Shown here: positions 6,283 to 62,340 of the stretch, in pieces | How the letters are laid out: each line of letters starts with the position of its first letter | Position numbering within the stretch: position 1 is the first letter of the stretch | DNA from: Saccharothrix sp. | GTDB taxonomy: Bacteria > Actinomycetota > Actinomycetes > Mycobacteriales > Pseudonocardiaceae | Direction: 5' to 3' | Length of the DNA stretch: 64,000 nucleotides | NCBI RefSeq assembly: GCF_031180885.1 | Contig: NZ_JAPSLK010000012.1 | Coordinates: forward strand, 1 to 64,000 | Position numbers and translations under genes: made by a program | The notes under the pieces: generated by a model | What the model saw: the letters and a program-made list of their open reading frames with translations, nothing else | The model's database searches: none | What the model was told of the DNA's origin: nothing

Positions 6283-6374
6283 CTCCCCGTCCAGTCCGGC
6301 ACCCGGCCAGTCCAGCGCCCAGCTAGCCCCCGGCGCCCGGTCAGCCCGACACCTGGCCAGCCCCGGTGCCCAGC

Positions 6375-6518: not shown

Positions 6519-6523
6519 CCCGG

Positions 6524-38259: not shown

Positions 38260-38299
38260 GCGTTGAATTGTCACCCCGCCGGGCCACCTTGGAAACCCC

Positions 38300-38416
38300 G
38301 CGAGGCCGCGTCGGCTCGTCGCGCGGCGTTTTCCGCCGATCGAAGGACGTGATCGACGGAAAACGCCGCGTGACGAGCCGACTACAGGCGGCCGAGCCGC
38401 CGGGACGAGGTCGCGG
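38300..38416. repeat. Dispersed stem-loop element, copy 1
   Basis: Core palindrome 38310-38382 with 32-nt arms differing at two positions (GTCGGCTCGTCGCG... pairing with ...GTGACGAGCCGAC), closing on GATCGAAGGACGTGATC. An outer region continues to about 38416 (GCGGCCGAGCCGC). It is in the reverse orientation compared with the other three copies and lies between the divergent ABC ATPase and mannosyltransferase genes. Confidence 0.85.
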
Positions 38417-38568
38417 CAATCCAACACCGCAAAGCACCACTTACTCCAAGTGGTCACTCGCTCGTGTGACCTGCCCGTGCGAAGATCCCCCAGGCTGTTA
38501 CGACCCTGTCACGCGTGTCCGCCATTGCGTGCCGACGCGCGCTCGCGTTGTGCGACGATGTTGCCGCG

Positions 38569-40083
38569 ATGGCCGCGACCCCGTCCCTTCCCAGATCGAG
38601 CGCCGCACGTGTCGAGCCGGTGCGGCCCGGTGCTACCCAGGCGCCGGATCCCGGTGGCATACCCGTCCGGACCATCCTGCTCGGCGTCGCCGGCGTCATG
38701 CTGGTCGCGTTGGGCGGCACGGGCGCGGGCGCGATCCTCAAGCGCGACCCCCTGCTCACCGACACCTCGCTGAGCTGGATCCGCTACGGGCACGGGCACG
38801 ACCTGGCCACCGCCGTCCTCTACCTCGGCCTCGGCATGGTCATCTGGGCGTGGGTGCGGCTGGGCCGCATGGTGCGCAACCGGCACGTGGGCAGCCAGGC
38901 CGTGCTCACCGCCGTGGTCGCCTGGACCCTGCCCCTGCTGTTCGCGCCGCCGCTGTTCAGCAAGGACATCTACAGCTACCTCGCCCAGGGCCAGATCGCC
39001 CTCAACGGCCTCGACCCGTACAAGGTCGGCCCGGCGGTCCTGCAAAGCCCGCTGTCGGACAACGTGAGCTGGGTGTGGCAGAACACGCCCGCCCCCTACG
39101 GCCCGTTGTTCCTCATGCTCGCCATGGGTGTCGTGGGCGTCACCAACGCGTCCGTCATCGGCGGCGTGGTCCTCATGCGCCTCGTGCTCGCCATCGGGCT
39201 CGGGATGCTCGTGTGGGCGCTGCCGGGCCTCGCGCGACACCTGGGCGGGCGGCCCGCCATCGCGCTGTGGCTGGCCGCCGCGAACCCGCTGATGCTGGTC
39301 CACCTCATCGGCGGCGCGCACAACGACCTGCTGATGGTCGGCCTGCTCGCGGCGGGCTGCCTGTTCGTGCTGGACGGCAAGCACGTGCTGGGCATCGCCG
39401 TGGTGACCCTCGCGTTCGCGGTGAAGGCCACCGCCGTGGTCGCGCTGCCGTTCCTGGTCCTGGTGTGGGCGCGGCGGCTCGACGGCACCCGCGGCGCCCA
39501 GCTGGGCAAGGCCATCGCGGGCGGGCTGGCGGTCTTCGTCGTGGTGTTCGGGGGCACGACCCTGGTCTCCGGGCTCGACCTGGGCTGGATCCCGGCGCTC
39601 AGCTCGTCGTCCACCATCGTCAACTGGCTGTCGCTGCCCAGCGCGGTCGGTGACTTCGTGCACACCGTGGTCAGCGCGTTCGTCCGGGTCGAGCCGGGCT
39701 GGTTCATGACCGTCGCGCGCGGCCTCGGGTCGCTCCTGCTGCTCTACATCGCGTGGCGGCAGTGGCGGGTGGCCGAGGACGGCGGTCCGGAGGCGGTGCG
39801 CCGCGCGGCCATCACCATGCTCGCGGTGGCCCTGCTCTCCCCCGCCACCCTGCCCTGGTACTTCAGCTGGGCGCTGGTGCTGGGCGCGGGCCTGGCGTGG
39901 ACCACCGGTGGCCTGCGGAAGGTGACGTTCTTCTCGATCTTCCTGCTGCTGGTGACCTTCCCCAACGGCGACACGGCCCTGTACTCGTGGGGCTACCTGG
40001 CGCTGACCGTGGCCGTGTCCGCGCTGGCGAGCGTGACCCTGGTCAAGCCCGACCCGCTGAAGCTGTCCAGCAGGTACGCGTGA
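38569..40083 (+). CDS. mptB: Polyprenol-phosphate-mannose-dependent mannosyltransferase (MptA/MptB type)
   Basis: GT-C membrane glycosyltransferase expected to add alpha-1,6-mannose to the lipomannan backbone. The 504-residue protein has about 13 hydrophobic segments and the family stretch [22 protein letters not shown] (about 139-160) in the first large loop, followed by [10 protein letters not shown]. It is in the place of M. tuberculosis Rv2174 (mptA), after idsA2 and before Rv2175c-pknL. The ATG at 38569 starts a polar N-terminus of about 30 residues. Its stop overlaps the crtB start (GTGA). Confidence 0.87.
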
Positions 40084-40997
40084 CCGACCTGCAGGCCGCC
40101 TACGACCGCTGCCGAGCCCTCAACGCCCGCCACGGCCGCACGTTCTACCTGGCCACCCGGCTGCTGCCCAAGCGCCAGCGGCCCGCCGTGCACGCCCTGT
40201 ACGGCTTCGCCCGGTGGGCCGACGAGATCGTGGACAGCGGCGCTTCCGCCGACCCGGCCGCCGAGCTGGACGACCTCGAACGCCTGCTGGCCGACGAGCT
40301 GGCGGGCCGCCCGACCGGCCACCCGGTGCTCACCGCCCTGGCCGACACCGCCCGCCGGCACCGCATCGACCCGGGCCTGTTCACCGACTTCCTGGGGTCC
40401 ATGCGGATGGACCTGCACGTCACGGAGTACGCGTCGTTCACCGAGTTGGACAAGTACGTGCACGGTTCGGCGGCGGTCATCGGACTGCAACTGCTGCCGG
40501 TGTTCGGCACCGTCGTCCCGCGCGCCCACGCCGAACCGGCCGCCGCCGCGCTGGGCCGGGCGTTCCAGCTGACCAACTTCCTCCGCGACATCGGCGAAGA
40601 CCTCGACCGGGGCCGCGTCTACCTGCCCATGGACGTCCTCGACGCCCACGGGGTCGACCGGGACCTGCTCGCTTGGTCACGTCGCACGGGACGCCCGGAC
40701 CAGCGCATCAGGCGCGCGATCGGGCACGTCATGGCCGTGACGTTGGCCACCTACCGCGAAGCGGAGGACGGCGTCGACCTGCTCCAACCGGCGGCACGAC
40801 CGTGCGTGCGGACGGCCCTGGTCCTCTACCGGAACATCCTGGAGGAGATCGCGGCGGCCGACTACAACGTGCTGGACAAGCGGGTCGTCGTCCCCCGCGC
40901 GAGACGGGCCGCGGTGGCGCTGCCAGGCCTGGTCAAGGCCGTGACCGCGCGAGCCGTGTCCGGGCGGCTCGCCTGGAACCGCCCGGACGACCACTGA
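40080..40997 (+). CDS. crtB: Phytoene synthase
   Basis: Condenses two GGPP to phytoene, the first C40 carotenoid step; works upstream of the crtI product. The 305-residue protein shows both Asp-rich motifs: [10 protein letters not shown] (about 45-54) and [18 protein letters not shown] (about 168-185), plus RRFYLAT-like opening [20 protein letters not shown] overlapping the mannosyltransferase stop starts it, so carotenoid and mannan synthesis share a transcript. The squalene synthase family is the only close alternative, made less likely by the nearby crtI. Confidence 0.92.
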
Positions 40998-41005
40998 AAC
41001 GGAAC

Positions 41006-41380
41006 TCAGAAACCCATCGCCTGGGCGCGCCGCTTGACCTCGCGACCGCGGTCGCCGCGCAACGCCTCGATCGGCGTGCCCGGCAGGGTGTCGTCTTCGG
41101 TGAACAGCCAGCGCAGGATCTCATCGGTCGAGTAGCCGGAGTCGCGCAGCACCGTGATGGTGCCGGGCAGCCCCTTCACCACGCCTCCGGCGGCGAGGAA
41201 TGCGGCGGGGACGACGAGGACACCGTTGCGGCGCTCGGCGAGCAACTGGCCGTCGCGCAGCAACTGGTGGACACGGTTGATCGGCAAGCCGAGACGCTCG
41301 GCGACCTGCGGGAGGTCGAGCACCTCCAGGTCGGGAGCCAGCACATCCGCAGCGGCAGGAATCGCACTCACAGGCGCCAC
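41006..41380 (-). CDS. Rv2175c-like DNA-binding protein
   Basis: A 124-residue protein with a helix-turn-helix at about 22-50 (LPQVAERLGLPINRVHQLLRDGQL) and a conserved C-terminal half with GVVKGLPGTITVLRDSGYSTDEILRWLFTEDDTLPGTPIEAL. In mycobacteria Rv2175c is a DNA-binding substrate of PknL, encoded next to it; the same divergent pairing is seen here. GTG at 41380 or 41371 may be the start. A phosphorylatable Thr near the N-terminus, as in Rv2175c, is not obvious. Confidence 0.87.
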   Translation of the reverse strand: MAPVSAIPAAADVLAPDLEVLDLPQVAERLGLPINRVHQLLRDGQLLAERRNGVLVVPAAFLAAGGVVKGLPGTITVLRDSGYSTDEILRWLFTEDDTLPGTPIEALRGDRGREVKRRAQAMGF

Positions 41381-41556
41381 GATGCCACAACGCGAGGAGC
41401 AACGCCCTGCGCCAACCGGGTGGTCGGGGTACACCCGCGGGTCGCTTCCCGGACACCCCCTGTTTCATGCGACTTTGACACGGATCCCACACGCGGGTGG
41501 GGATGCTCGCAGCGCACGGCATCGGTCGGTTCCACCCCACCGTACGATCCACGGCT

Positions 41557-43665
41557 GTGGAAAGGTCGGCGACGAACGTGATCGGCGGGCTGCTCGAGCA
41601 GCGCTACCGAGTGGGCGCCCTGGTGGCACGCGGCGGCATGTCCACCGTGTACCGGGGTGTCGACACGCGCCTGGAGCGGCCGGTGGCGATCAAGGTCATG
41701 GACCCCCAGTTCTCCTCCGACCCGCAGTTCGTGGCGCGGTTCGAGCGCGAGGCGCGGGCCGCGGCCGGGCTGCACCACCCCGGCGTGGTGGCGGTGCACG
41801 ACCAGGGCGTCGACGAGGACCGCGTGTACCTCGTGATGGAACTGGTGGAGGGCGGCACCCTGCGCGACCTCCTCAACCAGCGCGGCAAGCTGGACGTGCC
41901 GCTCGCCCTGACGGTGCTGGAGCGGGTCCTGTCCCCCCTGGCCGCGGCGCACCGGGCGGACCTGGTGCACCGGGACGTGAAGCCGGAGAACGTCCTCATC
42001 GGGCGCGGCGGCGCGGTGAAGGTGGCGGACTTCGGCCTGGTCCGGGCGGTGTCGACGCCGGGCATCACCAGCGACAACACGACCATCCTGGGCACCGTCG
42101 CCTACCTTTCACCCGAACAGGTGACCAACGGCTCGGCGGACGCCCGCAGCGACGTCTACGCGGCCGGCGTGCTGCTGTACGAGATGCTGACCGGCACGCC
42201 CCCGTTCGTCGGCGAGAACGCCATCTCGGTGGCCTACCGGCACGTCAACGACGAGGTCCCGGTGGTGCCGGACGTGCCCGCCGAGGTCGCCGAACTGGTC
42301 CGCCGGGCGACCCGCAAGGAGCCGTTCCTCCGACCGGCCGACGCCGAGGCGTTCCTGTCGGAGGTGGAGACGGCCCGGGCCGCGCTGGGCATCGCCGCGG
42401 TCGACGTGCCGGCGGTGACGCCCGCTGCACCGACGCCGCCCGGTTCGCTCGGCTCGTCGGGCTCGTCGGGCTCGTCGGCGGAGGCCACCGCCATCGCCCC
42501 GCTGAACCCCGCCGCGGAACCGGCGACGGTCCGCGTGCAGCCCGTGGGAGTGGGCGCCGGCACCGCCGTCGCCTACGCCGAACCGACCGTGCCGGTCCGC
42601 CGCCCGGAGCCGGCCGGCCCGCGGGGCACCATGGCGATGCCCCGCGGCCTGCTGACCGACCCCGCCACCGGCACCCCGCCCGGCGGCACCCGGACCGGCG
42701 GCCCTGGTGGTTCCAGACCGCGCCCCAAGCGGCCCCCGCGCAAGAAGACGCCCGAACAGCTCCAGGAGGAGATGCGGGCGCGCAGCAAGAAGCAGCTCAT
42801 CACGTGGATGAGCATCGTGGTCGTGGCGGCGATCGTCATCGGCCTGACGACCTGGTGGCTGTCCATCGGCAAGGTCGCGTCGGTGCCCAACGTGGTCGGC
42901 AAGGAGCAGGAGGTGGCCACCTCGATCATCGAGGACGCCGCCCTGAAGACCGCCGTCAGCACGGAGAACAGCAACGACGTGCCGAATGGCCAGGTCCTGC
43001 GCACCGACCCGCCGGCCGGGACCGAGCTGACCCGGGGCGACCTGGTGAAGGTCGTGGTGTCGCGGGGCAAGCCGGTCGTCCCGCAGGTGGCGGCCGGGTC
43101 GGAGACGGCGGTGGCCGAGCGGGAGATCGCGTCGGCGGGCTTGAAGTCCCAGCTCAACCCGGCCGATGACGCGTTCAGCGACCGGGTGCCGAAGGGCAAG
43201 GTGGTGACGCTCAAGCCCGCGCCCGGCACGCCCGTGGACATCGGGACGACGGTGACGATCGTGCTGAGCAAGGGCGTGGAGCCCAAACCGGTGCCGAACG
43301 TGAAGGGCAAGACGAAGGACGAGGCCTTCGCCGAGCTGTCGGCCGCGGGCTTCGAACCGGTGGAGGGGCCGCAGGAGCCGTCCGGCGAGGTGGAGGGCGG
43401 CCGGGTGGTCCGCACCAACCCGGCGGCCGGGACGACGTTGACCGGGGACAAGCGGGTGACGGTCATCATCGCGGCGGACCGGGGCGTGCTGGTGCCGAAC
43501 GTGGAGGGGAAGAAGGTCAAGGAGGCCAAGGAGGAGCTGCAGAAGGCCGGGCTGGAGGTCGAGGTGCAGTTCAACAACCGGGACCGGGCGACCGTGGTGA
43601 ACCAGTCCGTCCGCGGCGGCGAACGCGTCCCGAAGGGCACCAAGATCGTCCTGATCGCCGTCTGA
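41557..43665 (+). CDS. pknL: Serine/threonine protein kinase PknL with PASTA repeats
   Basis: Transmembrane kinase sensing the cell wall. The 702-residue protein has a kinase domain at 17-290: VARGGMSTVYRG glycine loop (23-34), Lys46, HRDVKPEN (138-145), DFG (158-160) and activation-loop threonines 175/176 (DNTTILGT). A Pro/Gly-rich linker (about 310-410) leads to one membrane helix (about 416-438). Four PASTA domains follow, each with a VPNV/VPQV start, and should bind muropeptides outside. The GTG at 41557 begins just before the kinase domain. Next to it is the Rv2175c-like gene, its likely substrate. Confidence 0.93.
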   Translation: MERSATNVIGGLLEQRYRVGALVARGGMSTVYRGVDTRLERPVAIKVMDPQFSSDPQFVARFEREARAAAGLHHPGVVAVHDQGVDEDRVYLVMELVEGGTLRDLLNQRGKLDVPLALTVLERVLSPLAAAHRADLVHRDVKPENVLIGRGGAVKVADFGLVRAVSTPGITSDNTTILGTVAYLSPEQVTNGSADARSDVYAAGVLLYEMLTGTPPFVGENAISVAYRHVNDEVPVVPDVPAEVAELVRRATRKEPFLRPADAEAFLSEVETARAALGIAAVDVPAVTPAAPTPPGSLGSSGSSGSSAEATAIAPLNPAAEPATVRVQPVGVGAGTAVAYAEPTVPVRRPEPAGPRGTMAMPRGLLTDPATGTPPGGTRTGGPGGSRPRPKRPPRKKTPEQLQEEMRARSKKQLITWMSIVVVAAIVIGLTTWWLSIGKVASVPNVVGKEQEVATSIIEDAALKTAVSTENSNDVPNGQVLRTDPPAGTELTRGDLVKVVVSRGKPVVPQVAAGSETAVAEREIASAGLKSQLNPADDAFSDRVPKGKVVTLKPAPGTPVDIGTTVTIVLSKGVEPKPVPNVKGKTKDEAFAELSAAGFEPVEGPQEPSGEVEGGRVVRTNPAAGTTLTGDKRVTVIIAADRGVLVPNVEGKKVKEAKEELQKAGLEVEVQFNNRDRATVVNQSVRGGERVPKGTKIVLIAV

Positions 43666-44143
43666 CCTCAGCCCCCGCCGGCCGCCCCCGCCCAACGCTC
43701 CACCACGTGGCGGGCGGCGGGCGGCAGGCAGTGGTGGCCAGCCGCAGCGGCGGCGGCAGCGGTCGGGCGGCGACGGCCGGCGGGCTGTTCGACCGCGCCG
43801 GAATTGTCGGTGTCGGATGAGATAATGGTTCCGGGGGCCGGAGGCCACGCCCGCCGCAAATCACCGCACGTCCGGCGACCGCATGCCCGCTGGCTGTCGC
43901 CAAGCCGCCGAGCCCGGCCCGCGCTCAATCAGCCGCGCCCAGCCAGCCAGCCCACGCCAGCCCACGCCAGCCAGCCAGCCCACGCCAGCCAGCCAGCCCA
44001 CGCCAGCCAGCCAGCCCACGCCAGCTAGCGCGCCAGCCAGCCAGCCCGCCAACCCGCGCGCCAGCCAGCCCGTCCGCCCGAGCCAGCGCCGAGCCCTGCC
44101 CTGCCCGGCCCGTCCGTCCGCGCCCAGCCGGCCACGAAGCACA
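43666..44143. repeat. Convergent pknL-aroG spacer with 18-bp repeats
   Basis: No gene is seen in this gap. From 43941 to 44022 the unit AGCCAGCCAGCCCACGCC occurs four times plus one partial copy; degenerate CCAGCC tracts continue to about 44070. The first part (43680-43860) is GC-rich without clear structure. Open frames across it are driven by the 18-bp period, a multiple of 3. Confidence 0.8.
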
Positions 44144-44178
44144 ACGCCCCGGCGGTCCGGAAAGGACTGCCGGGGCGT
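44144..44178 (-). terminator. Terminator of aroG
   Basis: ACGCCCCGGCGGTCC and GGACTGCCGGGGCGT form a 15-bp stem with one G-T type mismatch and a 5-nt loop, 20 nt past the aroG stop on the minus strand. It marks the end of the aroG transcript next to the repeat-filled gap. Confidence 0.75.
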
Positions 44179-44198
44179 CTCGGTCGAAACTCGGTGCG

Positions 44199-45590
<1,392 letters not shown>

Positions 45591-45639
45591 TTAAGGGTAG
45601 GGCGTCCACACTGAGAGACGGGCCCGGGTTGGCCTGGGC

Positions 45640-46671
45640 ATGATGAGCGTCATGCCCGTCACCCCTGCGGATGACCACCTGGTGGACGACGACACCGCCC
45701 AGCGCCTCCTGTCGACCGCGACCGCGAACGTCCTGCGCGACCACCCCGTGCACTGGACGCACGTGATCGATTCCGACGCGGGGCTGGTGCCGCAGCGGGT
45801 GCTGCACCCGGTGTTCGCGGGGTCTTTCGACTGGCATTCGTGCGTGCACCAGACGTGGTTGATGGTCCGCCTGCTGCGCCTGCGCCCCTCCCTGACCGGC
45901 GCGGACGAGGCTCGCGCCGCACTCAACGCCTTGATCACGCCCGAGGGCTGCCGGGCCGAGGCGGACTTCTTCGCCGGTCCGATGGGCAAGTTCTGGGAGC
46001 GCCCCTACGGCTGGGCGTGGCTGCTCGTGCTGGACGCCGAGCTGCGGACGTGGGGAACGTCACCGTGGTCGCTGGAGCCGCTGTCGAACGTCCTCCGTGA
46101 CCGGTTCCTCGAATGGGTGTCCCACGCCCGCCTGCCCATCCGCGCCGGCACGCACGCCAACACCGCCTTCGCGACCGGCCTGGTCCTCGACGCGGCCCGC
46201 GCGGTCGGTGACACCGAACTCGCCCGGGCCTGCGCGGAGGCCGCCCTGCGCTGGCACCGCGAGGACCGCGACTACGGCGGCTTCGAACCGGACGCGGCGG
46301 ACTTCCTGTCCCCCGCGCTCACCGAGGCCGACCTCATGCGCCGGGTCCTGCCCGACTTCCCGACCTGGTTCGAGGCGTTCCTGCCGAACCTGGAGGAGGC
46401 GCGCTGGAAGGTCCTGCGCGAACCGGTCCCCATCGACGACCCGGGCGACCCGTACGGCTCCCACCTGGTCGGGCTGGCCCTGTCCCGGGCCTGGTCGTGG
46501 CGGTCCATCGCCGAGGCCCTGCCCGAGGGGCACCGCTACCGGGAGCCCGCGCTGACCGCGGCCGACGACCACCGCGAGGCCGGCCTGCGGTACGTCTCCG
46601 GGCACGGGTACTACGCCGAGCACTGGCTCGGCACGTTCGCCGCCTACCTGTCCCTGGGCGCGTTCTCCTAG
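45640..46671 (+). CDS. DUF2891 family protein
   Basis: A 343-residue protein of the uncharacterised DUF2891 family. It is rich in Trp/His motifs: DWHSCVHQTWLMVRLLRL (about 66-83), ERPYGWAWLL, GTHANTAFATGLVLDAAR and a closing GLRYVSGHGYYAEHWLGTFAAYL. The helical pattern with paired aromatic helices resembles an alpha/alpha toroid as in glycoside-active proteins, but no activity is known. Starts at 45640, 45643 or 45652 are all possible. It shares the promoter gap with aroG. Confidence 0.83.
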   Translation: MMSVMPVTPADDHLVDDDTAQRLLSTATANVLRDHPVHWTHVIDSDAGLVPQRVLHPVFAGSFDWHSCVHQTWLMVRLLRLRPSLTGADEARAALNALITPEGCRAEADFFAGPMGKFWERPYGWAWLLVLDAELRTWGTSPWSLEPLSNVLRDRFLEWVSHARLPIRAGTHANTAFATGLVLDAARAVGDTELARACAEAALRWHREDRDYGGFEPDAADFLSPALTEADLMRRVLPDFPTWFEAFLPNLEEARWKVLREPVPIDDPGDPYGSHLVGLALSRAWSWRSIAEALPEGHRYREPALTAADDHREAGLRYVSGHGYYAEHWLGTFAAYLSLGAFS

Positions 46672-46678
46672 ACGCAAA

Positions 46679-46710
46679 AAGGCGCCTCCGGACGGGTCCG
46701 GAGGCGCCTT
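46679..46710. terminator. Bidirectional terminator between DUF2891 and pfp
   Basis: AAGGCGCCTCCGGAC and GTCCGGAGGCGCCTT form a perfect 15-bp stem with a 2-nt centre. On the minus strand, 12 nt past the phosphofructokinase stop, it is followed by TTTTT, a classic intrinsic terminator. On the plus strand it starts 8 nt after the DUF2891 stop. Confidence 0.88.
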
Positions 46711-46721
46711 CCGCAAAGACC

Positions 46722-47747: not shown

Positions 47748-47824
47748 TTGCTTACCAATCTCTTCGTGGCGTGGGTCACCCAAGACTGACACGACCTGGA
47801 TCGGTGCAGCAAGGCAGGGTCCAC

Positions 47825-48337: not shown

Positions 48338-48402
48338 CCACCAACCTTAGGGGTGACCGTCCGCCGACCATGAGGCCGGCTCGACCATGAGCACCGCTCG
48401 TC

Positions 48403-49119: not shown

Positions 49120-49314
49120 CGCTGGGAGCGCCTCCTCGACGTGCTTCGATCCCCGGCGGCCAGCGTACGGATGCGACCGCACCAGGCACAACGAAGACGC
49201 GCGTTCGGCCGGTACGGTCGCAAGTGCCACCGGCTGCCGTAATCCGCAACACAACGGGCCCGTGGGACGATGAACCCTGGCAGAGGACGCGCCTGGAGGG
49301 GTTGGAACACGCCG

Positions 49315-49788: not shown

Positions 49789-49800
49789 CGATGGGGCGGT

Positions 49801-49862
49801 CCTTTAGGGGGACGGTCCTTTAGGGGGACGGTCCTTTAGGGGGACGGTCCTTTAGGGGGTTG
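49801..49862. repeat. 16-bp tandem repeats CCTTTAGGGGGACGGT
   Basis: The unit CCTTTAGGGGGACGGT occurs three times perfectly (49801-49816, 49817-49832, 49833-49848) with a partial fourth to about 49860. It starts 12 nt after the stop of the small membrane gene, whose last codons (GACGGCGCGGTCCTCTGA) look like a diverged copy of the unit. Confidence 0.88.
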
Positions 49863-49878
49863 TCTCGCGTCGGTCGGG

Positions 49879-50075
49879 GGTTGTCTCGCGTTGGGCGTTC
49901 CGCCCGCCCACCCCCTCCCAGGCCTACCCCGCACAAGCCAGGCGCGCGGCGCGCGCCAAGCGCGCTTCGCGCGCAAGCCGCCGCAGGCGGCCCCGCCGAA
50001 GGCGGGTGCATTTGGGGCTTTTGCGAGGGGGCCTGGGAGGGGGTGGGTGGGCGGAACGCCCAACGCGAGACAACC
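49879..50075. repeat. Near-perfect 45-bp inverted repeat
   Basis: Arms 49879-49923 and 50031-50075 are complementary at 44 of 45 positions; each begins or ends with GGTTGTCTCGCGTTGGGCGT or its complement. The 107-nt interior has its own small hairpins (GCCGCAGGCGGC, CCCGCCGAAGGCGGG). It lies in the convergent gap between the membrane protein and the ROK kinase. Confidence 0.93.
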
Positions 50076-50186
50076 TCCAATGAACCCCGAGCGCCGGCCC
50101 CAACCCCGAGCGCCGAACCCCGAGCGCCGACTCTAAGCTCCCCGATCGCCGAACCGCCGTTCAGCGCCGCCGTTCAGCGCCCTCGT

Positions 50187-53171: not shown

Positions 53172-53199
53172 GCACGGCAGGCTAACAGTGTTGAACTGC

Positions 53200-53320
53200 C
53201 GCGACTCCGTCGCGGCGGCTCGGCCGCCCGGAGGGTCGGCTCATCGCGTCGCCTTTCCCGCCGATCGGAAAAGCTGATCGGCGGGAAAGGCGACGCGACA
53301 AGCCGACGGCGGCCTCGCGG
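53200..53320. repeat. Dispersed stem-loop element, copy 2
   Basis: Core palindrome 53235-53307 with 32-nt arms differing at two adjacent positions; closing sequence GATCGGAAAAGCTGATC. The inner arm (GCGTCGCCTTTCCCGCCGATC) differs from the other copies yet is matched on the other side. Outer arms CGGCTCGGCCGCC and GGCGGCCTCGCGG extend it to about 120 nt. It lies between the metallophosphoesterase and SRPBCC genes. Confidence 0.85.
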
Positions 53321-53326
53321 TGGTGG

Positions 53327-54115
53327 TCACCATCGCAACACGTGGGGCGTGCCGCTTCGTTGGAAATGACCAACGTTCACGCACTCGGTCCACCCCACCC
53401 GAACCCGGCGAGCCAACGGCTGGTGGACGTGCCCGAACACCGACCACCGCGGCCGGACTTTGCGGATCATCTCCAGCAGTGACGTCGACCCCAGCTCCGG
53501 CCGTCGCGCCACCACGTCGTAGGTCAGCTCGGCCACCGCCGGCGGCACGTGCGTGCACAGCACGTCCACCTCGCCCAACCCCGCCAACGCCGCCCCGAAC
53601 TCGTCGTCCGTGCGCAGGTACGGGTACCAGGGCGCGCCCGGCCGCCGCACGTACCCCGGCGACATGATCGCCCCGCCGGCGAACCCGAACCGCAGCCCGC
53701 CGATCTCCACCGACTCCCCGTCGAGCACGTGCACGCCCTCGCGCGCGAACGACGGCCACAGGTCCGGGCTGTCGACGTTGCCCGGCGTGGCGTAGGTCGG
53801 GGCGCTCATCGCCGGGAACAGCTCGGCGTACTGCTCCAGCACCGCCTCGCGGACCACCGACTCGGCGTCGTCGAGGCTGTCCCACAGCGACCGCATGTAC
53901 CGGACGGTCTCCACGCCCATCCGGCCGCGCCGCAACCGCGCGAACACCTCGACCTTCTCCGGCCCGAACACCCGCCCGAGGATGCCCTTGCCGTGGTCGT
54001 AGTAGTCGACGAAGTCGACCAGGTCCCCCAGGACCACCAGGGCGTCCGCGCCGTCGCCTGCCCGGGCGAGGGCCTCGGCGTTGCCGTGGACGTCCGAGAC
54101 GACATGTACCCGCAC
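53327..54115 (-). CDS. Metallophosphoesterase
   Basis: A 262-residue calcineurin-type phosphoesterase. All metal motifs are present in order: SDVHGN (7-12), GDLVDF (about 32-37), a GNVDS variant of GNHD (about 110), THVPP (about 180) and FGHVHQPLA (about 227). The Asp/His pattern suggests a nuclease or nucleotide phosphodiesterase; the substrate is unknown. The GTG at 54115 starts directly at the fold. It follows the second SRPBCC gene by 11 nt on the same strand. Confidence 0.87.
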   Translation of the reverse strand: MRVHVVSDVHGNAEALARAGDGADALVVLGDLVDFVDYYDHGKGILGRVFGPEKVEVFARLRRGRMGVETVRYMRSLWDSLDDAESVVREAVLEQYAELFPAMSAPTYATPGNVDSPDLWPSFAREGVHVLDGESVEIGGLRFGFAGGAIMSPGYVRRPGAPWYPYLRTDDEFGAALAGLGEVDVLCTHVPPAVAELTYDVVARRPELGSTSLLEMIRKVRPRWSVFGHVHQPLARRVRVGWTECVNVGHFQRSGTPHVLRW

Positions 54116-54126
54116 AGCCCCCGAAT

Positions 54127-54525
54127 CTACGGCAGCGCGGGCGGCAGCCCCGGAGCCCGGCCGCCCTCCAAGGTCAACTTGAGGCCCAGCGAGACCTCCT
54201 TCGCGGCCAGCTGGCGGCGGCGCACCTCCTGCCGGACCCGCTTGGGCGTGACGTCGCCGCGGAGGTCGGCCCGGAGGAAGTAGTGCAGGAGCGTCCCGTC
54301 GAGCATCGGCTCCAGCCACACCTCCATCGTTCCGACCAATGCCCCCGCGACCGTCCAGCGCAGTCCCCGGATGCCCCGATCGAGGTAAACGTCCAGAATG
54401 AGGTCGGGCCAGTACCGCGCCCAGTCGGAGGGCTCGGCGAAGGCGCCCACGACCACCTCGGGAGGGACTGCGAGGAACGTCTCGTCCACCACGTCAACGC
54501 TCGGCACGGGTGGGAAGAGTGCCAC
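54127..54525 (-). CDS. Polyketide cyclase/SRPBCC-like protein (Rv2186c-like)
   Basis: A 132-residue protein with the length and position of Rv2186c. The START-like pattern includes VVDETFLAVPPEVVVGAF, SDWARYWPDLILDVYLDRG and LEPMLDGTLLHYFLRADL. The GTG at 54525 begins MALFPPVPSVDV. It is divergent from fadD15 and 11 nt upstream of the metallophosphoesterase, with which it is probably co-transcribed. It may bind an acyl or isoprenoid ligand; this is inferred from the fold. Confidence 0.8.
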   Translation of the reverse strand: MALFPPVPSVDVVDETFLAVPPEVVVGAFAEPSDWARYWPDLILDVYLDRGIRGLRWTVAGALVGTMEVWLEPMLDGTLLHYFLRADLRGDVTPKRVRQEVRRRQLAAKEVSLGLKLTLEGGRAPGLPPALP

Positions 54526-54618
54526 GACACGGTCACGGAACGGTCCGCCGGCCTGTTTATCGCCGGAATCACACGCTAAGTTTCCTCACCGGTAACAAAC
54601 AACCGTCCGGAGGTTGAC

Positions 54619-56427
54619 GTGCGCGAGTTCAGCGTCCCGGCCACAGCGACCGTGGCCGCCGAGGAGAACCTCACCGACATGGTGTGGGCCAACGCGGAGC
54701 GCTTCGGCAACGCCGTCAGTTTCCGCCGCCGCGTCGACGGGACCTGGGTCGACGTGACCGCCCGCGACTTCGCCGCCCAGGTGCTGGCAGTTGCGAAGGG
54801 CCTGATCGCGGCGGGCCTCCAGCCCGGCGAGCGGATCGGCCTGATGTCGAAGACCCGCTACGAGTGGACCCTGCTCGACTTCGCCATCTGGCAGGCAGGC
54901 GGCGTGAGCGTGCCGATCTACGAGACCTCCTCCGCGGAGCAGGTCGAGTGGATCCTGTCCGACTCGGCGGCGAAGGCCGTGATCGTGGAGACCGCGGCGC
55001 ACCGCGCGACCGTCGACTCCGTGGTCGCGGGCCTGCCCGAGGTGCGCAACGTGTGGACCATCGACGGCCCGAACGGCGACTCGGCGGGCGTGATCGACGA
55101 GCTGACCGGCCTGGGTGCCGCCATCACCGACGAGGAGGCCGCCGCCCGGCGCAAGGCGGTCGGCGCGGACGACACGGCGACGATCGTCTACACCTCCGGC
55201 ACCACCGGCCGGCCCAAGGGCTGCGAGCTGACCCACCGCAACCTGCTGTCCGAGGTGCGCGCCGACATCCACGCGTTCCCGCAGCTCATGCAGGCGGGCG
55301 GCTCGCTGCTGGTGTTCCTGCCGCTGGCGCACATCCTGGCCCGCGCGATCGCCCTGTGCGGCACCTACACGCGGGTGACGCTGGGCCACACCGCGGACGT
55401 GAAGAACCTGGTCGACGACCTCCAGTCGTTCCGGCCGACGTTCGTGGTGGCCGTGCCGCGCGTGTTCGAGAAGGTCTACAACGGCGCGAAGCAGAAGGCG
55501 CACGCGGCGGGCAAGGGCAAGATCTTCGACGCCGCCGAGGCGACCGCCGTCGCGTACAGCCACGCGCAGGCGAGCGGGGGCGCGGGGCTGGGCCTGAAGC
55601 TCAAGCACGCGGTGTTCTCCAAGCTCGTCTACTCCAAGCTCCAGGCGGCGCTGGGCGGCCGGTGCATCGCGGCGGTGTCCGGCGGCGCGCCGCTGGGCGA
55701 GCGGCTGGCGCACTTCTTCCGCGGCGTGGGCGTGCCGGTGCTGGAGGGCTACGGCCTGACCGAGACCAGCGCGGCGGCGTGCGTGAACACCGAGGCGGCG
55801 TACCGGGTCGGCACGGTCGGCCGGCCGGTCGCGGGCACGTCGGTGCGCATCGGCGAGGACGGCGAGATCCTGATCAAGGGCGAGATCGTGTTCCGGTCCT
55901 ACTGGAACAACGAGGCCGCGACCGCCGAGGCCCTGGAGGACGGCTGGTTCCACACCGGCGACCTGGGCGAGCTGGACGACGACGGCTTCCTCAAGATCAC
56001 CGGCCGGAAGAAGGAGATCATCGTCACGGCCGGCGGCAAGAACGTCTCCCCGGCCGTGCTGGAGGACCGCCTCCGGGCGCACCCGCTGATCAGCCAGTGC
56101 ATGGTGGTCGGCGACGCGCAGCCGTTCATCGGCGCGCTGATCACCATCGACCCGGAGTTCTTCCCGGCGTGGAAGGAGCAGAACGGCAAGCCGGCGTCGG
56201 CCACGGTCGCGGACCTGGTCGACGACGAGACGCTGCGCCAGACCATCCAGGCCGCGGTGGACGAGGCGAACCAGGCGGTGTCCAAGGCGGAGGCGATCAA
56301 GAAGTTCCGCATCCTGCCGGTGGACTTCACCGAGGCCGGCGGCGAAATGACGCCGAGCCTCAAGTTGCGCCGGGCCGTGGTGGCCAGCACCTACAAGCAG
56401 GACATCGAAGCGATCTACTCGGCGTGA
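54619..56427 (+). CDS. fadD15: Long-chain fatty-acid-CoA ligase FadD15
   Basis: Activates fatty acids to acyl-CoA through an acyl-adenylate. The 602-residue protein has the AMP-binding P-loop YTSGTTGRPKG (about 193-203), VPRVFEKVYN, GGAPLGERLAHFF, YGLTETSAA (about 376) and the hinge GRKKEIIVTAGGKNVSP (about 467-483) with a C-terminal acylation lysine region. GTG at 54619 is preceded by a strong GGAGG. Position and length match Rv2187, in the same order before pimB', although a regulator gene is inserted between them here. Confidence 0.95.
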   Translation: MREFSVPATATVAAEENLTDMVWANAERFGNAVSFRRRVDGTWVDVTARDFAAQVLAVAKGLIAAGLQPGERIGLMSKTRYEWTLLDFAIWQAGGVSVPIYETSSAEQVEWILSDSAAKAVIVETAAHRATVDSVVAGLPEVRNVWTIDGPNGDSAGVIDELTGLGAAITDEEAAARRKAVGADDTATIVYTSGTTGRPKGCELTHRNLLSEVRADIHAFPQLMQAGGSLLVFLPLAHILARAIALCGTYTRVTLGHTADVKNLVDDLQSFRPTFVVAVPRVFEKVYNGAKQKAHAAGKGKIFDAAEATAVAYSHAQASGGAGLGLKLKHAVFSKLVYSKLQAALGGRCIAAVSGGAPLGERLAHFFRGVGVPVLEGYGLTETSAAACVNTEAAYRVGTVGRPVAGTSVRIGEDGEILIKGEIVFRSYWNNEAATAEALEDGWFHTGDLGELDDDGFLKITGRKKEIIVTAGGKNVSPAVLEDRLRAHPLISQCMVVGDAQPFIGALITIDPEFFPAWKEQNGKPASATVADLVDDETLRQTIQAAVDEANQAVSKAEAIKKFRILPVDFTEAGGEMTPSLKLRRAVVASTYKQDIEAIYSA

Positions 56428-56429
56428 AG

Positions 56430-56590
56430 CACCGACCCGCGCCACGGCAAGCCGTGTCGGATGGCGCCGCCTCCGGCGTCGCGGCTCGGCCGCCTGGAGG
56501 TCGGCCCATCGCGGCGTGATTCCACCGATCGGAAGGGCTGATCGGCGGAATCACGCCGCGACAGGCCGGCGCGGCCTCGCGGGTGGCGCG
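56430..56590. repeat. Dispersed stem-loop element, copy 3
   Basis: Core palindrome 56500-56570 (31-nt arms, 27 paired) around GATCGGAAGGGCTGATC. The left flank GGCTCGGCCGCCTGGAGGTCGGC and the right flank GCGCGGCCTCGC match copies 2 and 4. It begins a few bases after the fadD15 stop and could be part of its 3' end. Confidence 0.83.
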
Positions 56591-56654
56591 GGATCTCGCG
56601 CAGCAGTGGTTCGAAGTTGCGCCAATTGAGACCCTGGCGGTGTGATCGGCGCTA

Positions 56655-56708
56655 CAGTTGGCCGGGAACAGACGAGTGGCCCGCACCGGAACCCGGTGCG
56701 GGCCACTC
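56655..56708 (+). promoter_or_regulatory. TACAGT element followed by a 16-bp hairpin
   Basis: TACAGT (56653-56658) resembles a -10 box. Shortly after, GAGTGGCCCGCACCGG (56674-56689) and its perfect complement (56693-56708) form a 16-bp stem with a 3-nt loop. This could be the terminator of fadD15, or a promoter with a structured leader or short RNA upstream of the SARP gene. No T-run follows. Confidence 0.45.
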
Positions 56709-56872
56709 GACCCCCAGTGTTCGTTATCCGCTGGCGCGGATTCGAGAAGTTCTGTTGTCCCGGTCCCCCAACCGGGACGTGCTCAAGACTGCCTGAGCGC
56801 GCTGTCGTATCGCTGACGCGGCGATGACACGGGCCGTCAGCGGCCACGCGCGGAGGGCGGGGAACGGACGGG

Positions 56873-59758
56873 ATGGCTGTCGGGTCGGGTCCGTGGTTCG
56901 GGCTGCTCGGCCCCCTCGACGTGCGCATCGGCGACCGGCCCGTGCCCGTCCGCGCGGGCAAGCACCGGGCGCTGCTGGCGGCGTTGTCCCTGCGTGCGGG
57001 CCGGGTGGTGGCCGTGGCGGAGCTGGTCGGGTTCCTGTGGGGCGACGACCCGCCGGCCCGGACCCGGGGCACCTTGCAGACCTACGTCATGCGGTTGCGC
57101 CAGCTGCTCGGGGACGCTTCGCTGATCCGCACCACCGCCGACGGCTACCGCTTGGTGGTGTCGCCGGAACAGGTCGACGTCCACCGGTTCACCACCGCGG
57201 CGGGTCTCGCGCGCCGGGCGGCGCTGGCCGGTGAGGCCGTCCGCGCCGCCGACCTCTACGCCGACGCGCTGGCCCTGTGGCGCGGGCCGGCGCTGGTCGA
57301 CGTGCCGTCCGAGGCGCTGCGCCGCGCCGAAGCGCCCCGGCTCGCCGAACGGCTGCTGACCGTCCACGAGGAGCGCAACGACGTCGAACTCGCGCTGGGC
57401 CACCACGAGCGCCTGGTGCCCGACCTGCGCGCGCTGACCGCCGACCACCCGCAGCGGGACCGGTTCCGGGCGCAGTTGATGACCGCGCTCTACCGGTGCA
57501 GCCGGCAGGCCGAGGCGCTGGAGGTGTTCCGGCAGGCGGCCAACCCCGGCCCCGAGGTGCGCGCGCTGCACCGGGCGATCCTGCTCGGCGACCCGGCGCT
57601 GGCCGCCCCGGGCGGGCCGCCCGACCCGGACGTGCCCGACCAGTTGCCGCCGGACGCGCCGGACTTCGCGGGCCGGGCCGACGCCGTCGCGCGGGTCACC
57701 GATCTGATCGCCCCGACCGGGACCGCGGTGCCCGTGGTGGCGGTCACCGGGCCGGCGGGGGTGGGCAAGACCGCGCTGGCGGTGCACGTGGCGCACCGGC
57801 TGCGGGACCGGTTCCCGGACGGCCGGCTGTACGCGGACCTGCGCGGCTCGGACCGCGGCCCGGCGACGGCGGACGTGCTGACCCGGTTCCTGCGCGCCCT
57901 GGGCGTGCCGCCCGAGCAGATCCCGGTGGACTCCGACGAGCAGGGCACCCTGTTCCGCACGCTGCTCGCGGGCCGCCGGATGCTCGTGGTGCTCGACGAC
58001 GCCACCGCCCCCGACCAGGTCCGCCCGCTGCTGCCCGGGACCGCCGACTGCCCGGTCCTGGTGACCAGCCGGCACGACCTGCGCGGCCTGATCGCCGTGG
58101 ACGGCGCCCGCCGGGTCGCCCTGGACGTCCTGAGCACCGAGGACTCCCTCGAACTGCTCGGCGCCACCGGGCCCGCCGCGCGGGAACTGGCCCGGCGCTG
58201 CGGCGGGCTGCCGCTGACCCTGCGCGTCGCGGCGGCGGCCACGACGAACGGATCCGTCGACCGGTTCCTGGCCCGCCTGGGCGACCGCGACCCGGTGGCG
58301 GCGGCCCTCGACGGCCTGCCCGAGGCCGCCCGCCGGCTGTTCGGCCTGCTCGGTGTCGTGCCGGGCCCGGACATCACCGCCGAGGCCGCCGCGCACGCCG
58401 CCGACCTGCCGGTGGACGCCGCCGCGACCCTGCTCAACCAGTTGGCCGCCGCCCGCCTGGTCCAGGCCCACGGTGGCCGCTACCGCCGGCACGAGGCCCT
58501 GACCGGCCCGCCCGCGTCGCCCGAGGAGGTGTCCGCGGCCCGCGTGCGGCTGCTGCGCTTCTACGTGCGGGCCGTGGACCACTGCGCCGAACTGCTCTAC
58601 CCGGACCTGATGCGCCTCCCGCCGTCCGACGGGACCGCCGTCCGCCTGCCCCGCGTCGAGACCGCCGCCCAGGCCCGGGCGTGGCTGGACGCGGAACGCC
58701 CCAACCTGACCGCCGCGATCCGCTCCGCCGCCGAGCACGGCCCCGCCGACGTCTCCTGGCGGCTGGCCGACGGCCTGCGCGGCTACCTGTGGATCGGCAA
58801 GCACGTCACCGAGTGGCGCACCGCCGCCCGCTACGGCCTCGACGCCGCCTCCGCCCACCACGACCGGGCGGGCCTCGCCGCGATGCACCAGAACCTGGGC
58901 GCGCTCCACTGGCGCCTGGGCGACTTCCGCACCTCCACCGCCCACTACACCCGGGCCGTCGAACTGCACCGCGCGGCCGGCGACCACGTCTGGGAGGCCG
59001 GCGTGCTCGGCAACCTGGGCCTGGTCAAGCTGGACGCAGGCGACCTCGCGGGCGCCCGCGACGACCTGGAGACCTGCCTGGCGCTGACCCGCGAGGCGGG
59101 CTGCGCCAAGAGCGAGGCGGCGGTCCTCACCGGCCTGGGTGTGCTGGCGATCGACACCGGCGAGCTGGCCGAGGCCGAGGACCTGCTCACCGAGGCCCTG
59201 TCGATCAGCACCGGACGCGGCAACCCGGTCGGGCGGATCTCGGCGCTGACCCTCCTGGGCCTGACCGCGCGGCTCCGGGGCGACCCGACCCGCGCGTTGA
59301 CCCACCTGGACGAGGCCCTGCGGCTGAGCACCGAGGCGGGCTTCCGCGAGTCGACCGCCCGGGCCCTGGAGAACGCCGCCGCGGTCCACCTCGACCTGGG
59401 CGACCCGGGCACGGCGCTGGCGCTGGCCAACCGGGCTTTGACCGAACTGGCCGAGGACGGCGACCAGCGCACGACCACGAACGTCCTGGTCGTCCTGGCC
59501 GCCACCAGCCGGGCCACCCGGGACCTGCGCACCGCGGACGAGCAGTACCAGCAGGCCTTGACCAAGGCCCGGCACATCGGCTACCGGTTCGGCGAGGCCA
59601 ACGCTTTGGTGGGCCTGGCCGCCGTCCGACGCGAGCGCGGCGAACTGGTCGAGGCGAAGGCCCTGGCCACCCGGGCGGTGGACCTCACCGCCACCCACGG
59701 GTTGAAGCTCATCGAGACGGCGGCCCGGGCGGAGCTGGCGAACCTCACAGATCGATGA
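56873..59758 (+). CDS. SARP/AfsR-type regulator with NB-ARC and TPR domains
   Basis: A 961-residue transcription activator. Residues 8-95 are the OmpR-like DNA-binding domain (LLGPLDVRIGDRPVPV, RTRGTLQTYVMRLRQLLG); 100-240 the bacterial transcription activation domain; 260-500 an NB-ARC-like ATPase with P-loop TGPAGVGKTALAV (about 290) and VVLDDA (Walker B). From about 640 TPR-like repeats such as LGNLGLVKLDAGDLAGARDDLE continue to the end. Such proteins switch on antibiotic or developmental genes in streptomycetes; no biosynthetic cluster is adjacent, so its targets lie elsewhere. Its 3' end overlaps pimB' by 14 nt. Confidence 0.92.
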   Translation: MAVGSGPWFGLLGPLDVRIGDRPVPVRAGKHRALLAALSLRAGRVVAVAELVGFLWGDDPPARTRGTLQTYVMRLRQLLGDASLIRTTADGYRLVVSPEQVDVHRFTTAAGLARRAALAGEAVRAADLYADALALWRGPALVDVPSEALRRAEAPRLAERLLTVHEERNDVELALGHHERLVPDLRALTADHPQRDRFRAQLMTALYRCSRQAEALEVFRQAANPGPEVRALHRAILLGDPALAAPGGPPDPDVPDQLPPDAPDFAGRADAVARVTDLIAPTGTAVPVVAVTGPAGVGKTALAVHVAHRLRDRFPDGRLYADLRGSDRGPATADVLTRFLRALGVPPEQIPVDSDEQGTLFRTLLAGRRMLVVLDDATAPDQVRPLLPGTADCPVLVTSRHDLRGLIAVDGARRVALDVLSTEDSLELLGATGPAARELARRCGGLPLTLRVAAAATTNGSVDRFLARLGDRDPVAAALDGLPEAARRLFGLLGVVPGPDITAEAAAHAADLPVDAAATLLNQLAAARLVQAHGGRYRRHEALTGPPASPEEVSAARVRLLRFYVRAVDHCAELLYPDLMRLPPSDGTAVRLPRVETAAQARAWLDAERPNLTAAIRSAAEHGPADVSWRLADGLRGYLWIGKHVTEWRTAARYGLDAASAHHDRAGLAAMHQNLGALHWRLGDFRTSTAHYTRAVELHRAAGDHVWEAGVLGNLGLVKLDAGDLAGARDDLETCLALTREAGCAKSEAAVLTGLGVLAIDTGELAEAEDLLTEALSISTGRGNPVGRISALTLLGLTARLRGDPTRALTHLDEALRLSTEAGFRESTARALENAAAVHLDLGDPGTALALANRALTELAEDGDQRTTTNVLVVLAATSRATRDLRTADEQYQQALTKARHIGYRFGEANALVGLAAVRRERGELVEAKALATRAVDLTATHGLKLIETAARAELANLTDR

Positions 59759-60875
59759 GAGCCGCCAAGCGGTCGGCCAGGTCGTCCCAGCGCCACTCCC
59801 TGGTGACCCAGTCACGGCCGGCCTCGCCCATCTTCGCGGCCAGGTCCCGGTCCGCCAGCAGGCGACCCACCTCGGCCGCCACCGACGACACCGCGCGCCC
59901 GTCCACCACCGTGCCGGTGATGCCGTCCCGCACGGTCTCCGGCGCGCCACCCGACTGCCCGGCGACCACGGGCAACCCGGTCGCCGAAGCCTCCAGGTAC
60001 ACGATCCCCAGACCCTCGACGTCCAAGCCACGACCCCGTGTCCGGCACGGCATGGCGAACACGTCACCGGCGTTGTAGTGGGCGGGCAACTCCGACCACG
60101 GCACGGAACCCGTGAACACCACGTGCTCCGCGACGCCCACAGACTCGGCCAGGCGCTGCAACGACTTCCGGTACGGCCCGCCGCCCACCAGCAGCAGCGC
60201 GGCGTCCGGGGCCAGCCGCCGGATCTCCGGCAACGCCCGCACCAGCACGTCCTGGCCCTTGCGCGGCACCAGACGGGACACGCACACGACCACCGGCCGG
60301 TCACCCAAGCCGTACCGGGCGCGGATCTCCACGCGGGCCACGGGGTCCGGGGCGAAGATCGAAGTGTCCACACCGGACGGAAGGTGTTCCAGCGCCGCCA
60401 TCGGACCGAAGGCGGCGGCGAAGCGGGAACGGGTGTAGCGGCTCACGAACGTGACGACGTCCACAGAGGACCCGATGGCGCGCAACGACTGCCGTGCCGC
60501 GGGCAGCATCGACCACCCCACCTCGTGGCCGTGGGTGGACGCGACGACCCGCGCGGCGCCCGCGTTGCGCAGCCACGGCGTCATGAGCGCCAACGGTGCC
60601 GCCGCGCCGAACCACACCGCCTCGCAGCGCTCGGCGCGCATGATGTCCGACGCCCGGCGCAGCACGTCCGGTGTCGGCAGCATCAACGTGCCCGGGTGGC
60701 GCACCACGGGGAACGGCTGGGCCGCGTCGAACTCCGGGTGGGACCCGGAGGGCGACTCCCACGACGGCGCGTAGACCACCAGGTTCGGCAGGCGGGTGGC
60801 CAGGGCGTGCAGGTAGGCCTGGATGCCACCGGGCCGGGGCGGGAAGTCATTGGTCACCAGCAGGGTCCGACGCAC
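59745..60875 (-). CDS. pimB: Phosphatidylinositol alpha-mannosyltransferase PimB' (Rv2188c-like)
   Basis: GT4 glycosyltransferase expected to add the second mannose in PIM synthesis at the inner membrane. The 376-residue protein has the donor-domain opening TLLVTNDFPPRPGGIQ, HGHEVGWSM, and the GT-B motifs FVSRYTRSRF, VCVSRLVPRKGQD and EGLGIVYLEASATGLPVVAG with the conserved EX7E pair. It matches the Rv2188c position after fadD15. A GTG at 60884, one base after the upstream stop, is an alternative start; 60875 has GGGG at a better distance. Confidence 0.92.
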   Translation of the reverse strand: MRRTLLVTNDFPPRPGGIQAYLHALATRLPNLVVYAPSWESPSGSHPEFDAAQPFPVVRHPGTLMLPTPDVLRRASDIMRAERCEAVWFGAAAPLALMTPWLRNAGAARVVASTHGHEVGWSMLPAARQSLRAIGSSVDVVTFVSRYTRSRFAAAFGPMAALEHLPSGVDTSIFAPDPVARVEIRARYGLGDRPVVVCVSRLVPRKGQDVLVRALPEIRRLAPDAALLLVGGGPYRKSLQRLAESVGVAEHVVFTGSVPWSELPAHYNAGDVFAMPCRTRGRGLDVEGLGIVYLEASATGLPVVAGQSGGAPETVRDGITGTVVDGRAVSSVAAEVGRLLADRDLAAKMGEAGRDWVTREWRWDDLADRLAALIDL

Positions 60876-60885
60876 GCGCCCCACG

Positions 60886-62154
60886 TTACGGGAACGCCGC
60901 CCGGAGGAATTGCTGCCAGCCCCGCACCAGCCCCGCCACGTCCTCGCCGGTGGCTTCCAGCACGAGCGCGTCCATCCGCTCCGGCGACACCCGGCCCGCG
61001 CCCGCGATGCGGCGGTGCAACTGGACGAGGCCCGGTTCACCGAGCCGTTGCGCCAGGTACAGGTTGAGCGACCAGGACTGCTGGTAGGCCAGTTCCATGG
61101 ACGGGCCGCGGAAGTCGGCGTCGGCGGGCAGCCGGGTGGGCAGTTCGCGTTGCAGCTGGGCGGCCAGGGCGGGCGCCGCCTTGCGCGGGGGCACGTCACT
61201 GCCCCGGTAGCCCACGTAGTCCGCGAAGCCCTCCAGCAGCCACATGGGCGCGCCGTCCACGGTCTCGCCGCGCGCGGCCACATGCGTGATCTCGTGCCGC
61301 AGCAGGACGCGCAACGACAGCGGTGACAACACGCTCGCGCCCGTCGGGTTCAGCACCACTCGCTGGCCCTGCGCGGTGTGCGTCTCGGCGTCGACCCGGT
61401 CGGCCACCGCGACCCCGGCGATCGACCCGTCGGCGAGCCCCGGCCCGACCAGGGCGCGCATCTCCTCGACGTTCCCCGGGATCAGCACCGCCACCTGCCG
61501 CGACCAGGCTGGGCCCCACACCTGCGTCACGGTGTCCACGGCGGTGTCCAGTTCGGCCAGCACCCGCGCGGCCAGCGGCTCGCCACCGGGGTGGCTCAGC
61601 ACGAACCCGCCGGTCCCGGTCAGCACGTGGCACGGCCCGAAGTCCCACGGACCGCGCCAGGTGCGCTTGCCCAGCGGCTCCAGCGCGGTGTCGGAGTTGA
61701 GGAACCACCGGTCGCCGCGCCGGGTGAACAGGTAGGCCATCGGCTGCGTGCTGGGCACGACGTCCACCCCGCGCAGCCGGTAGGCCAGCCGCACGTCCGG
61801 CGCCCACACCTGGTCGGCGGCGGGCGGCGTGATGCCGGCGAGGTTCGTCTCGCCCTCCAGCCGGTACTCCCACTCCCCCACCGGCACGGCGGCCAGGTTG
61901 CGGAACAGCTCCCGCTGCCGGCGGACGAAGTCGGGATCGGCCTGCGGATCCAAGTCGGCGGTGAACGCCGCCTCGTCCCGCTCCAACACCGCCCGCGCCC
62001 GACGCTCAAGCAGATCGTGGACGGCCTGCTCACGCGGGTCCGACACGGCGACCGGCGGCGGCGCGGGCGTCTCCACCGGGGTCACGGCCAGCCCGAGCCC
62101 CGTCAGGAAGGTCATCGTCACCGCGATGGCCAACAACACCCGAACGCGCCTCAC
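60886..62154 (-). CDS. Membrane-anchored zinc peptidase (peptidase MA-like)
   Basis: A 422-residue protein with an N-terminal membrane segment (about 5-25) and an outside gluzincin-type domain. The zinc motif is RHEITHVAARGE with a Glu ligand in WLLEGFADYVGY about 20 residues later, as in M1-like peptidases. The N-terminal part (about 45-210) resembles a nuclear-transport-factor-like domain before the catalytic domain. GTG at 62154 follows AGGAGG and starts a clean MRRVRVLLAIAV anchor; ATG at 62190 is the longer option. It is directly before pimB' with a 10-nt gap or less. Confidence 0.78.
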   Translation of the reverse strand: MRRVRVLLAIAVTMTFLTGLGLAVTPVETPAPPPVAVSDPREQAVHDLLERRARAVLERDEAAFTADLDPQADPDFVRRQRELFRNLAAVPVGEWEYRLEGETNLAGITPPAADQVWAPDVRLAYRLRGVDVVPSTQPMAYLFTRRGDRWFLNSDTALEPLGKRTWRGPWDFGPCHVLTGTGGFVLSHPGGEPLAARVLAELDTAVDTVTQVWGPAWSRQVAVLIPGNVEEMRALVGPGLADGSIAGVAVADRVDAETHTAQGQRVVLNPTGASVLSPLSLRVLLRHEITHVAARGETVDGAPMWLLEGFADYVGYRGSDVPPRKAAPALAAQLQRELPTRLPADADFRGPSMELAYQQSWSLNLYLAQRLGEPGLVQLHRRIAGAGRVSPERMDALVLEATGEDVAGLVRGWQQFLRAAFP

Positions 62155-62224
62155 GTGCCTCCTGAAGTCGAACAGGGCCACCCTCGTCATGAGGATGGCC
62201 CTGCCCGACAGTATCCATTGCGCC

Positions 62225-62340
62225 GCCTTCGGCGTCGCGGCGAGGCCGCCTGGAGGTCTGCTCGTCGCGCCGTGTTCCGCTCCGATCGAAAAGCGTGATC
62301 GGAGCGAAGGCGCCGCGACAAGCCGACGCGGCCTCGCGTC
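62225..62340. repeat. Dispersed stem-loop element, copy 4
   Basis: Core palindrome 62256-62327 around GATCGAAAAGCGTGATC. Outer arms GTCGCGGCGAGGCCGCC (about 62234-62250) and GCGGCCTCGCG (about 62329-62339) extend the structure. The inner arms differ from other copies but remain largely complementary. It ends just before the NlpC/P60 stop codon, on the 3' side of that gene. Confidence 0.83.

Follow-up and report, generated by a model that had tools for sequence, protein, structure and literature searches.

A dispersed family of structured hairpin units, probably mobile, in Saccharothrix and other actinobacteria

Four units and their architecture

The window analysed here, a 64,000-nt stretch of a Saccharothrix genome (assembly GCF_031180885.1, contig NZ_JAPSLK010000012.1, positions 1 to 64,000), contains four full copies of a hairpin-forming unit of about 131-135 nt. 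Copy 1 (38298..38429, minus strand) is located in a divergent gap between genes at 37543-38259 (-) and 38698-40083 (+), as placed by our own gene caller. The long stem of copy 2 (53186..53320, +) is almost perfect, and 6 nt separate its CTCGC end from the end called for the gene at 53327-54115 (-). Copy 3 (56452..56582, +) lies 24 nt past the called end of the gene at 54619-56427 (+), and in copy 4 (62209..62339, +) the distance from the CTCGC end to the end called for the gene at 62342-63376 (-) is 2 nt. A first-pass annotation of this DNA had described four intergenic hairpin copies, one of them inverted. All four are present and fall between genes according to our gene-calling script, copy 1 being the inverted one, and their folds exceed those of dinucleotide shuffles (z -7.4, -10.3, -6.8 and -5.5; 0 of 200 shuffles in each case).

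The extent and content of the units had been seen in part. The annotated ranges covered copy 3, but the units in copies 1, 2 and 4 start 13-16 nt farther out, and although the two-tier long hairpin had been recognised, neither the 5' box nor the separate small hairpin had been named. The loop given for all four, GATCGGAA..GCTGATC, occurs in copies 2 and 3, whereas copy 4 has GATCGAAAAGCGTGATC and the loop of copy 1 is flipped relative to its outer part. A fifth copy is located just beyond the window (L019, G000:C121:65073-65201), giving five copies in 27 kb, where the genome as a whole averages about one per 105 kb.

Alignment of 43 copies with their flanks gives the order of the unit: the box CNGTGTTGRATKG, hairpin 1, GGC(GA/TC)GGCCGCC, a short spacer and then the long hairpin. 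In copy 2, the box is at 53186..53198 (+; consensus from a logo of 89 copies and from other genera), hairpin 1, as folded, at 53196..53218 (+), and the inner long hairpin, inside the outer stem, at 53235..53307 (+). The inner hairpin starts with GTCGG and ends with CCGAC, and is followed by GCGGCCTCGC, the pairing partner of the first outer arm. The position of the box is the 5' end in every copy. The logo of 89 copies shows a sharp edge here, where C (93%) is followed by N and GTG; upstream of it, a purine preference at one base is all that is left, while the 3' edge fades past CTCGC. Head-to-tail neighbours in another genome of the genus, G015, repeat with a period of 129-132 nt, consistent with the unit length.

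Family size, distribution and fold

Copy 1, used as a query against the genome, produced 67 matches and a covariance model of 40 copies produced 145, both strands being counted in each case. Such a genome-wide search had been proposed as a check on the first description of the family; 90 distinct places were tabulated in the 9.46-Mb genome, from 175 matches in 80 sources, and the family is thus not refuted. Searching with the 5' box alone gave 74 matches, compared with one in the control (seven three-mismatch matches outside known copies were left unread), and recovered two full units with very different stems, L194 and L204, outside the 90 places. A 3'-end pattern gave 56 matches, again with one in the control. 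Two of these were outside the tabulated copies: L252, which consists of the far end only, and L253, which has both ends and an internal deletion.

Matches occur in 21 of 24 Saccharothrix genomes, including this one, and are absent from G004, G011 and G013, as well as from all of 16 genomes from other families in the order. The number per genome ranges from 0 to at least 85, a level reached both by G015 and by the genome studied here (both strands counted). Under stricter filters, 27 of 200 genomes of the family Pseudonocardiaceae match, spanning five of 46 genera. When named genomes were scanned with the 5' box, 85 stretches were found, belonging to Saccharothrix, Lentzea, Kutzneria, Amycolatopsis and ten Nocardia species, and 18 of these loci were read. 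Those in Lentzea and Kutzneria include full units, and the single Amycolatopsis locus is a cut unit. Of 11 Nocardia loci, five were folded. Each shows the box, hairpin 1 and an outer stem, and its inner hairpin differs in sequence; three of the folds are far beyond shuffles (z -7.7, -9.1 and -7.5) and two mildly so (-2.5 and -2.7). The six remaining loci are either cut or unclear. The units of Lentzea, Kutzneria and Nocardia have an architecture in common with those of Saccharothrix but different stems, and the inner stem is largely rewritten in other genera with its pairing retained. The family spans at least two actinobacterial families.

The arms had been reported to differ between the four copies while staying complementary within each, as would be expected of a fold under selection, and covariation across many copies had been named as the test. 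The alignment used here, A1, holds 40 copies (44 clusters less one weak fragment, leaving 43, and less L017, one of L026, and L037), and the signal persists in it. Paired cells make up 91.5% of A1, compared with 86.4% after shuffling, the covariation score is 0.133 against 0.054, and none of 500 shuffles matches A1 on any of five covariation measures. The signal is lost when the partner is slid. Double changes are present in 22 of the 47 pairs named on A1, and 11 of the 47 have at least three Watson-Crick types; a tree of the copies, a weak one given how short the repeats are, requires at least 63 changes between Watson-Crick pair types. The pairing has exceptions, five of the roughly 32 positions of the inner stem being unpaired in 15-27 of the 40 copies. 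Taken from aligned copies, these data constitute strong evidence that the fold has been kept by selection. In seven of the 90 copies the loop is flipped, suggesting that the DNA between the arms was inverted. Searches against Rfam returned no match in the window and, in further scans, only sub-threshold ones, mainly to microRNA hairpins, with none at the gathering cut-off.

Gene ends, insertion sites and arrays

Of the 90 places, four fall within called genes and the position of three is unclear. The gaps holding the other 83 copies are co-directional in 49 cases, convergent in 18 (16 of 118 among background gaps) and divergent in 16. These classes, and the distances that follow, are approximate, as the gene caller is a home-made codon-usage script. 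Gaps that contain the 3' end of a gene account for 67 copies, and in 40 of these an edge of the unit is within 12 nt of the gene end, compared with 28.5 +- 3.1 under uniform placement within the same gaps (largest of 2000: 39). There is no corresponding excess near gene starts (11 edges, 10.7 expected). In 17 of 83 copies the unit contains the stop codon of the gene, among its first ten bases, and orientation in co-directional gaps is uneven, at 33 to 16.

It may be asked whether these hairpins are a signal in RNA, terminating transcription or shielding mRNA ends, with the RNA fold selected site by site. The excess at gene ends and the raised share of convergent gaps would fit this, as would the strong predicted RNA folds and their covariation. 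However, the copies in divergent gaps and the occurrence of both orientations relative to the upstream gene do not, nor do the three genomes of the genus that have no match and the empty or decayed orthologous sites. The patchy numbers, empty orthologous sites and decayed copies argue that an RNA signal is not the main reason for the existence of the family, and we regard this explanation as improbable.

At the site of copy 2, 19 of 20 relatives are empty; the exception is G016, the closest of them here, in which a different unit lies at a distance of about 13 nt. At the site of copy 4, judged by eye, none of 20 relatives has a unit. The site of copy 3 is more varied: G016 lacks a unit, the unit in G012 starts at the end of a gene and provides its stop codon, and eight other relatives carry a reverse unit or remnants at one common junction. 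At site B, five of the eight units are decayed (the remnant in G020 is slight), and the orthologous units in G006, G001 and G023 differ in their stems. Decay at this site has removed the hairpin and left the 5' part, so loss of the palindrome after insertion does occur.

Another copy is located at a gene that, from its sequence, we take to be hpt. An empty relative reads TAC TCC AGC TGA at this point, and the genome studied here reads TAC TCA GTG TGA; a unit in another genus, L127, is found at the identical codon of the putative hpt. In 30 ortholog loci of this gene, the unit is present in the genome studied here, L360 has a possible remnant, 27 have none by eye and L385 was left unparsed. Because the loci are mostly empty, common ancestry of this copy and L127 is not shown. 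By supplying stop codons, the family illustrates how such elements shape the ends of genes.

No general target duplication was detected across 88 copies, the best of 980 settings reaching z 3.1, and a single copy, L095, has an exact 11-nt flank match. The sharp 5' end, the lack of a general target duplication and the empty sites at copies 2 and 4 indicate that the copies are insertions. They are likely to be mobile but non-autonomous elements, about 131-135 nt in length. Selection on the fold would then serve mobilisation: an enzyme provided in trans would recognise the hairpin formed by single-stranded or extruded DNA, and the 5' box and hairpin 1 would mark the end that is joined. Copies close to stop codons would survive because they do the least harm there and can provide a stop codon. 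New units have also joined into old ones, mostly at G|C. The uneven orientation in co-directional gaps is a counterpoint, as a pure DNA element need not show it. Mobility nevertheless remains the best reading of the sites and copies as compared at the sequence level.

Many units are cut. In G015, a cut unit is followed directly by a unit in the same direction at 17 of 38 loci examined by reading, many of which were selected for closely spaced boxes, and the cut is mostly, though not always, at a G that formerly preceded a C. The solo 5'-box matches read in the genome studied here comprise nine that end at varied points within the unit, five with internal deletions and the two full units L194 and L204. 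Among the solo cut copies read in this genome, nine retain the CNGTG end and one the other end, a count to be read in light of the 5' pattern, which has more ambiguous positions, is more permissive than the 3' pattern and so favours 5' fragments. In a symmetric count of truncation in G015, the sites that appeared unpaired were nearly all full copies of a variant. The asymmetry could reflect either copying from the CNGTG end or later loss of an unstable palindrome.

Copying from one end would be expected of a retroelement resembling a SINE, in which the reverse-strand RNA (3' end ..CCAACACNG) is copied into a nick and incomplete copying with template jumps leaves cut units that have a sharp CNGTG end and are followed by full units. 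The solo cut copies and the G015 loci are what such a process would leave, with the caveats just given on how both were found. However, 5' parts without the hairpin also arise when an inserted unit decays, as at site B, and insertion into an old unit combined with slippage yields the same arrays. Furthermore, the reverse transcriptase family PF00078 has no match in G015, G006 or G009. This mechanism is accordingly an unlikely one. The fuller version seems just as unlikely: a bacterial SINE-like element across Pseudonocardiaceae and Nocardia, its structured RNA copied from the ..CACNG end into nicks at gene 3' ends, with template jumps building the cut-unit arrays and a mobiliser that is neither RAYT nor a standard reverse transcriptase. 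A different kind of array is present at L246 (G015:C1:1029000-1033500), where three near-identical 195-nt tandem units at about 1682-2266 each consist of the element and a constant flank; this looks like segmental duplication rather than separate insertions.

Candidate mobilisers and known element classes

Palindromes interspersed in bacterial genomes are frequently linked to RAYT transposases, and a REP-associated transposase had been suggested for the present family. The genome contains no match to PF01797 (Y1/RAYT), and such matches are present in five of 25 genomes of the genus, leaving 20 of 25 without one. PF00078 is matched in 10 of the 25, this genome included. As mobilisers, both were rejected: among the 10 genus genomes with at least 20 family matches, only three have Y1 (G012, G014 and G019) and only five have PF00078 (G000, G010, G012, G016 and G019), and match-rich G015 and G006 have neither. 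The genes flanking the copies are ordinary chromosomal genes in appearance. Of 153 called, 117 were within the length limit, and 114 proteins were scanned after three were set aside, long ones being trimmed to 400 residues; no transposase is among the 25 listed of the 153 Pfam families matched. Nor was an autonomous parent with the same ends seen among the loci read.

A classical REP/BIME family moved by RAYT would share with these units the extragenic location, the palindromic form, the frequent proximity to gene ends and the absence of target duplication. It would not account for the distribution of PF01797, for a GTAG at the foot of the hairpin in only seven of 90 copies, or for a unit of about 131 nt where 20-40 is expected, and it is very unlikely here.

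The sites called attC in integrons are one-strand recombination hairpins with the consensus GTTRRRY. GTTGGAT in the box of the present units fits that consensus. Unlike attC sites, the units have no matching inverse core visible at the other end, and the copies are dispersed rather than arranged as a cassette array.

The first-pass designation of a REP/MITE-like family is apt in that the copies are dispersed, palindromic, intergenic and, judging from the empty sites, inserted, but the hallmarks of either class were absent when tested. In Di Nocera 2013 (PMC3733652), GTAG-tagged REPs associated with RAYTs are described as many dispersed extragenic palindromes, mostly behind genes. The present family resembles them in these respects, being high in copy number and mostly extragenic, but differs in its modular unit of about 131 nt (20-40 bp for REP palindromes), its 5' box and extra hairpin, the rarity of GTAG and the lack of a genomic Y1 match. 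The same paper describes CGTC-tagged REPs as palindromic, without a known transposase, and with 8-9 bp stems and an unpaired CGTC end, whereas here the inner stem is several times that length and GTC is part of the stem. That paper never names Actinobacteria and mentions untagged REP-like repeats of M. tuberculosis in passing. Relative to MITEs, as outlined in a review (PMC10969869), the units are likewise short, non-autonomous, mobile, hairpin-forming and found beside genes. No terminal inverted repeat is present, however (mean 30% identity over 12 nt), and neither a general target duplication nor a parent element was found. The family is therefore of the REP/MITE kind without the tested hallmarks of either class, and is undescribed as far as the literature was searched, a search that left most subscription journals outside it and found no description of such a family.

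The result is a large family with a fold that bears a clear mark of selection, numbers that vary among sister species and no mobiliser among the candidates searched for. Since complete genomes range from those lacking copies to those with scores of them, the family is well suited to the search for a new enzyme that recognises hairpins.

Several other repeats occur in the window. Within 49793-49924 and 50030-50078, four 16-nt tandem units of the GGGACGGTCCTTTAGG type (49793-49856) are found shortly before a 49-nt inverted repeat (96% complementary, arms 105 nt apart), which encloses further small palindromes; these may be iterons or the end of an element. Another inverted repeat, of 43 nt, at 31198-31292, is 86% complementary, has 9 nt between its arms and is A/T-rich at its tip; it may represent a terminator or the end of an insertion sequence. 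At 24816-25085 and 6330-6530 there are tandem repeats with units of 30 nt and 16 nt, several of which are identical.
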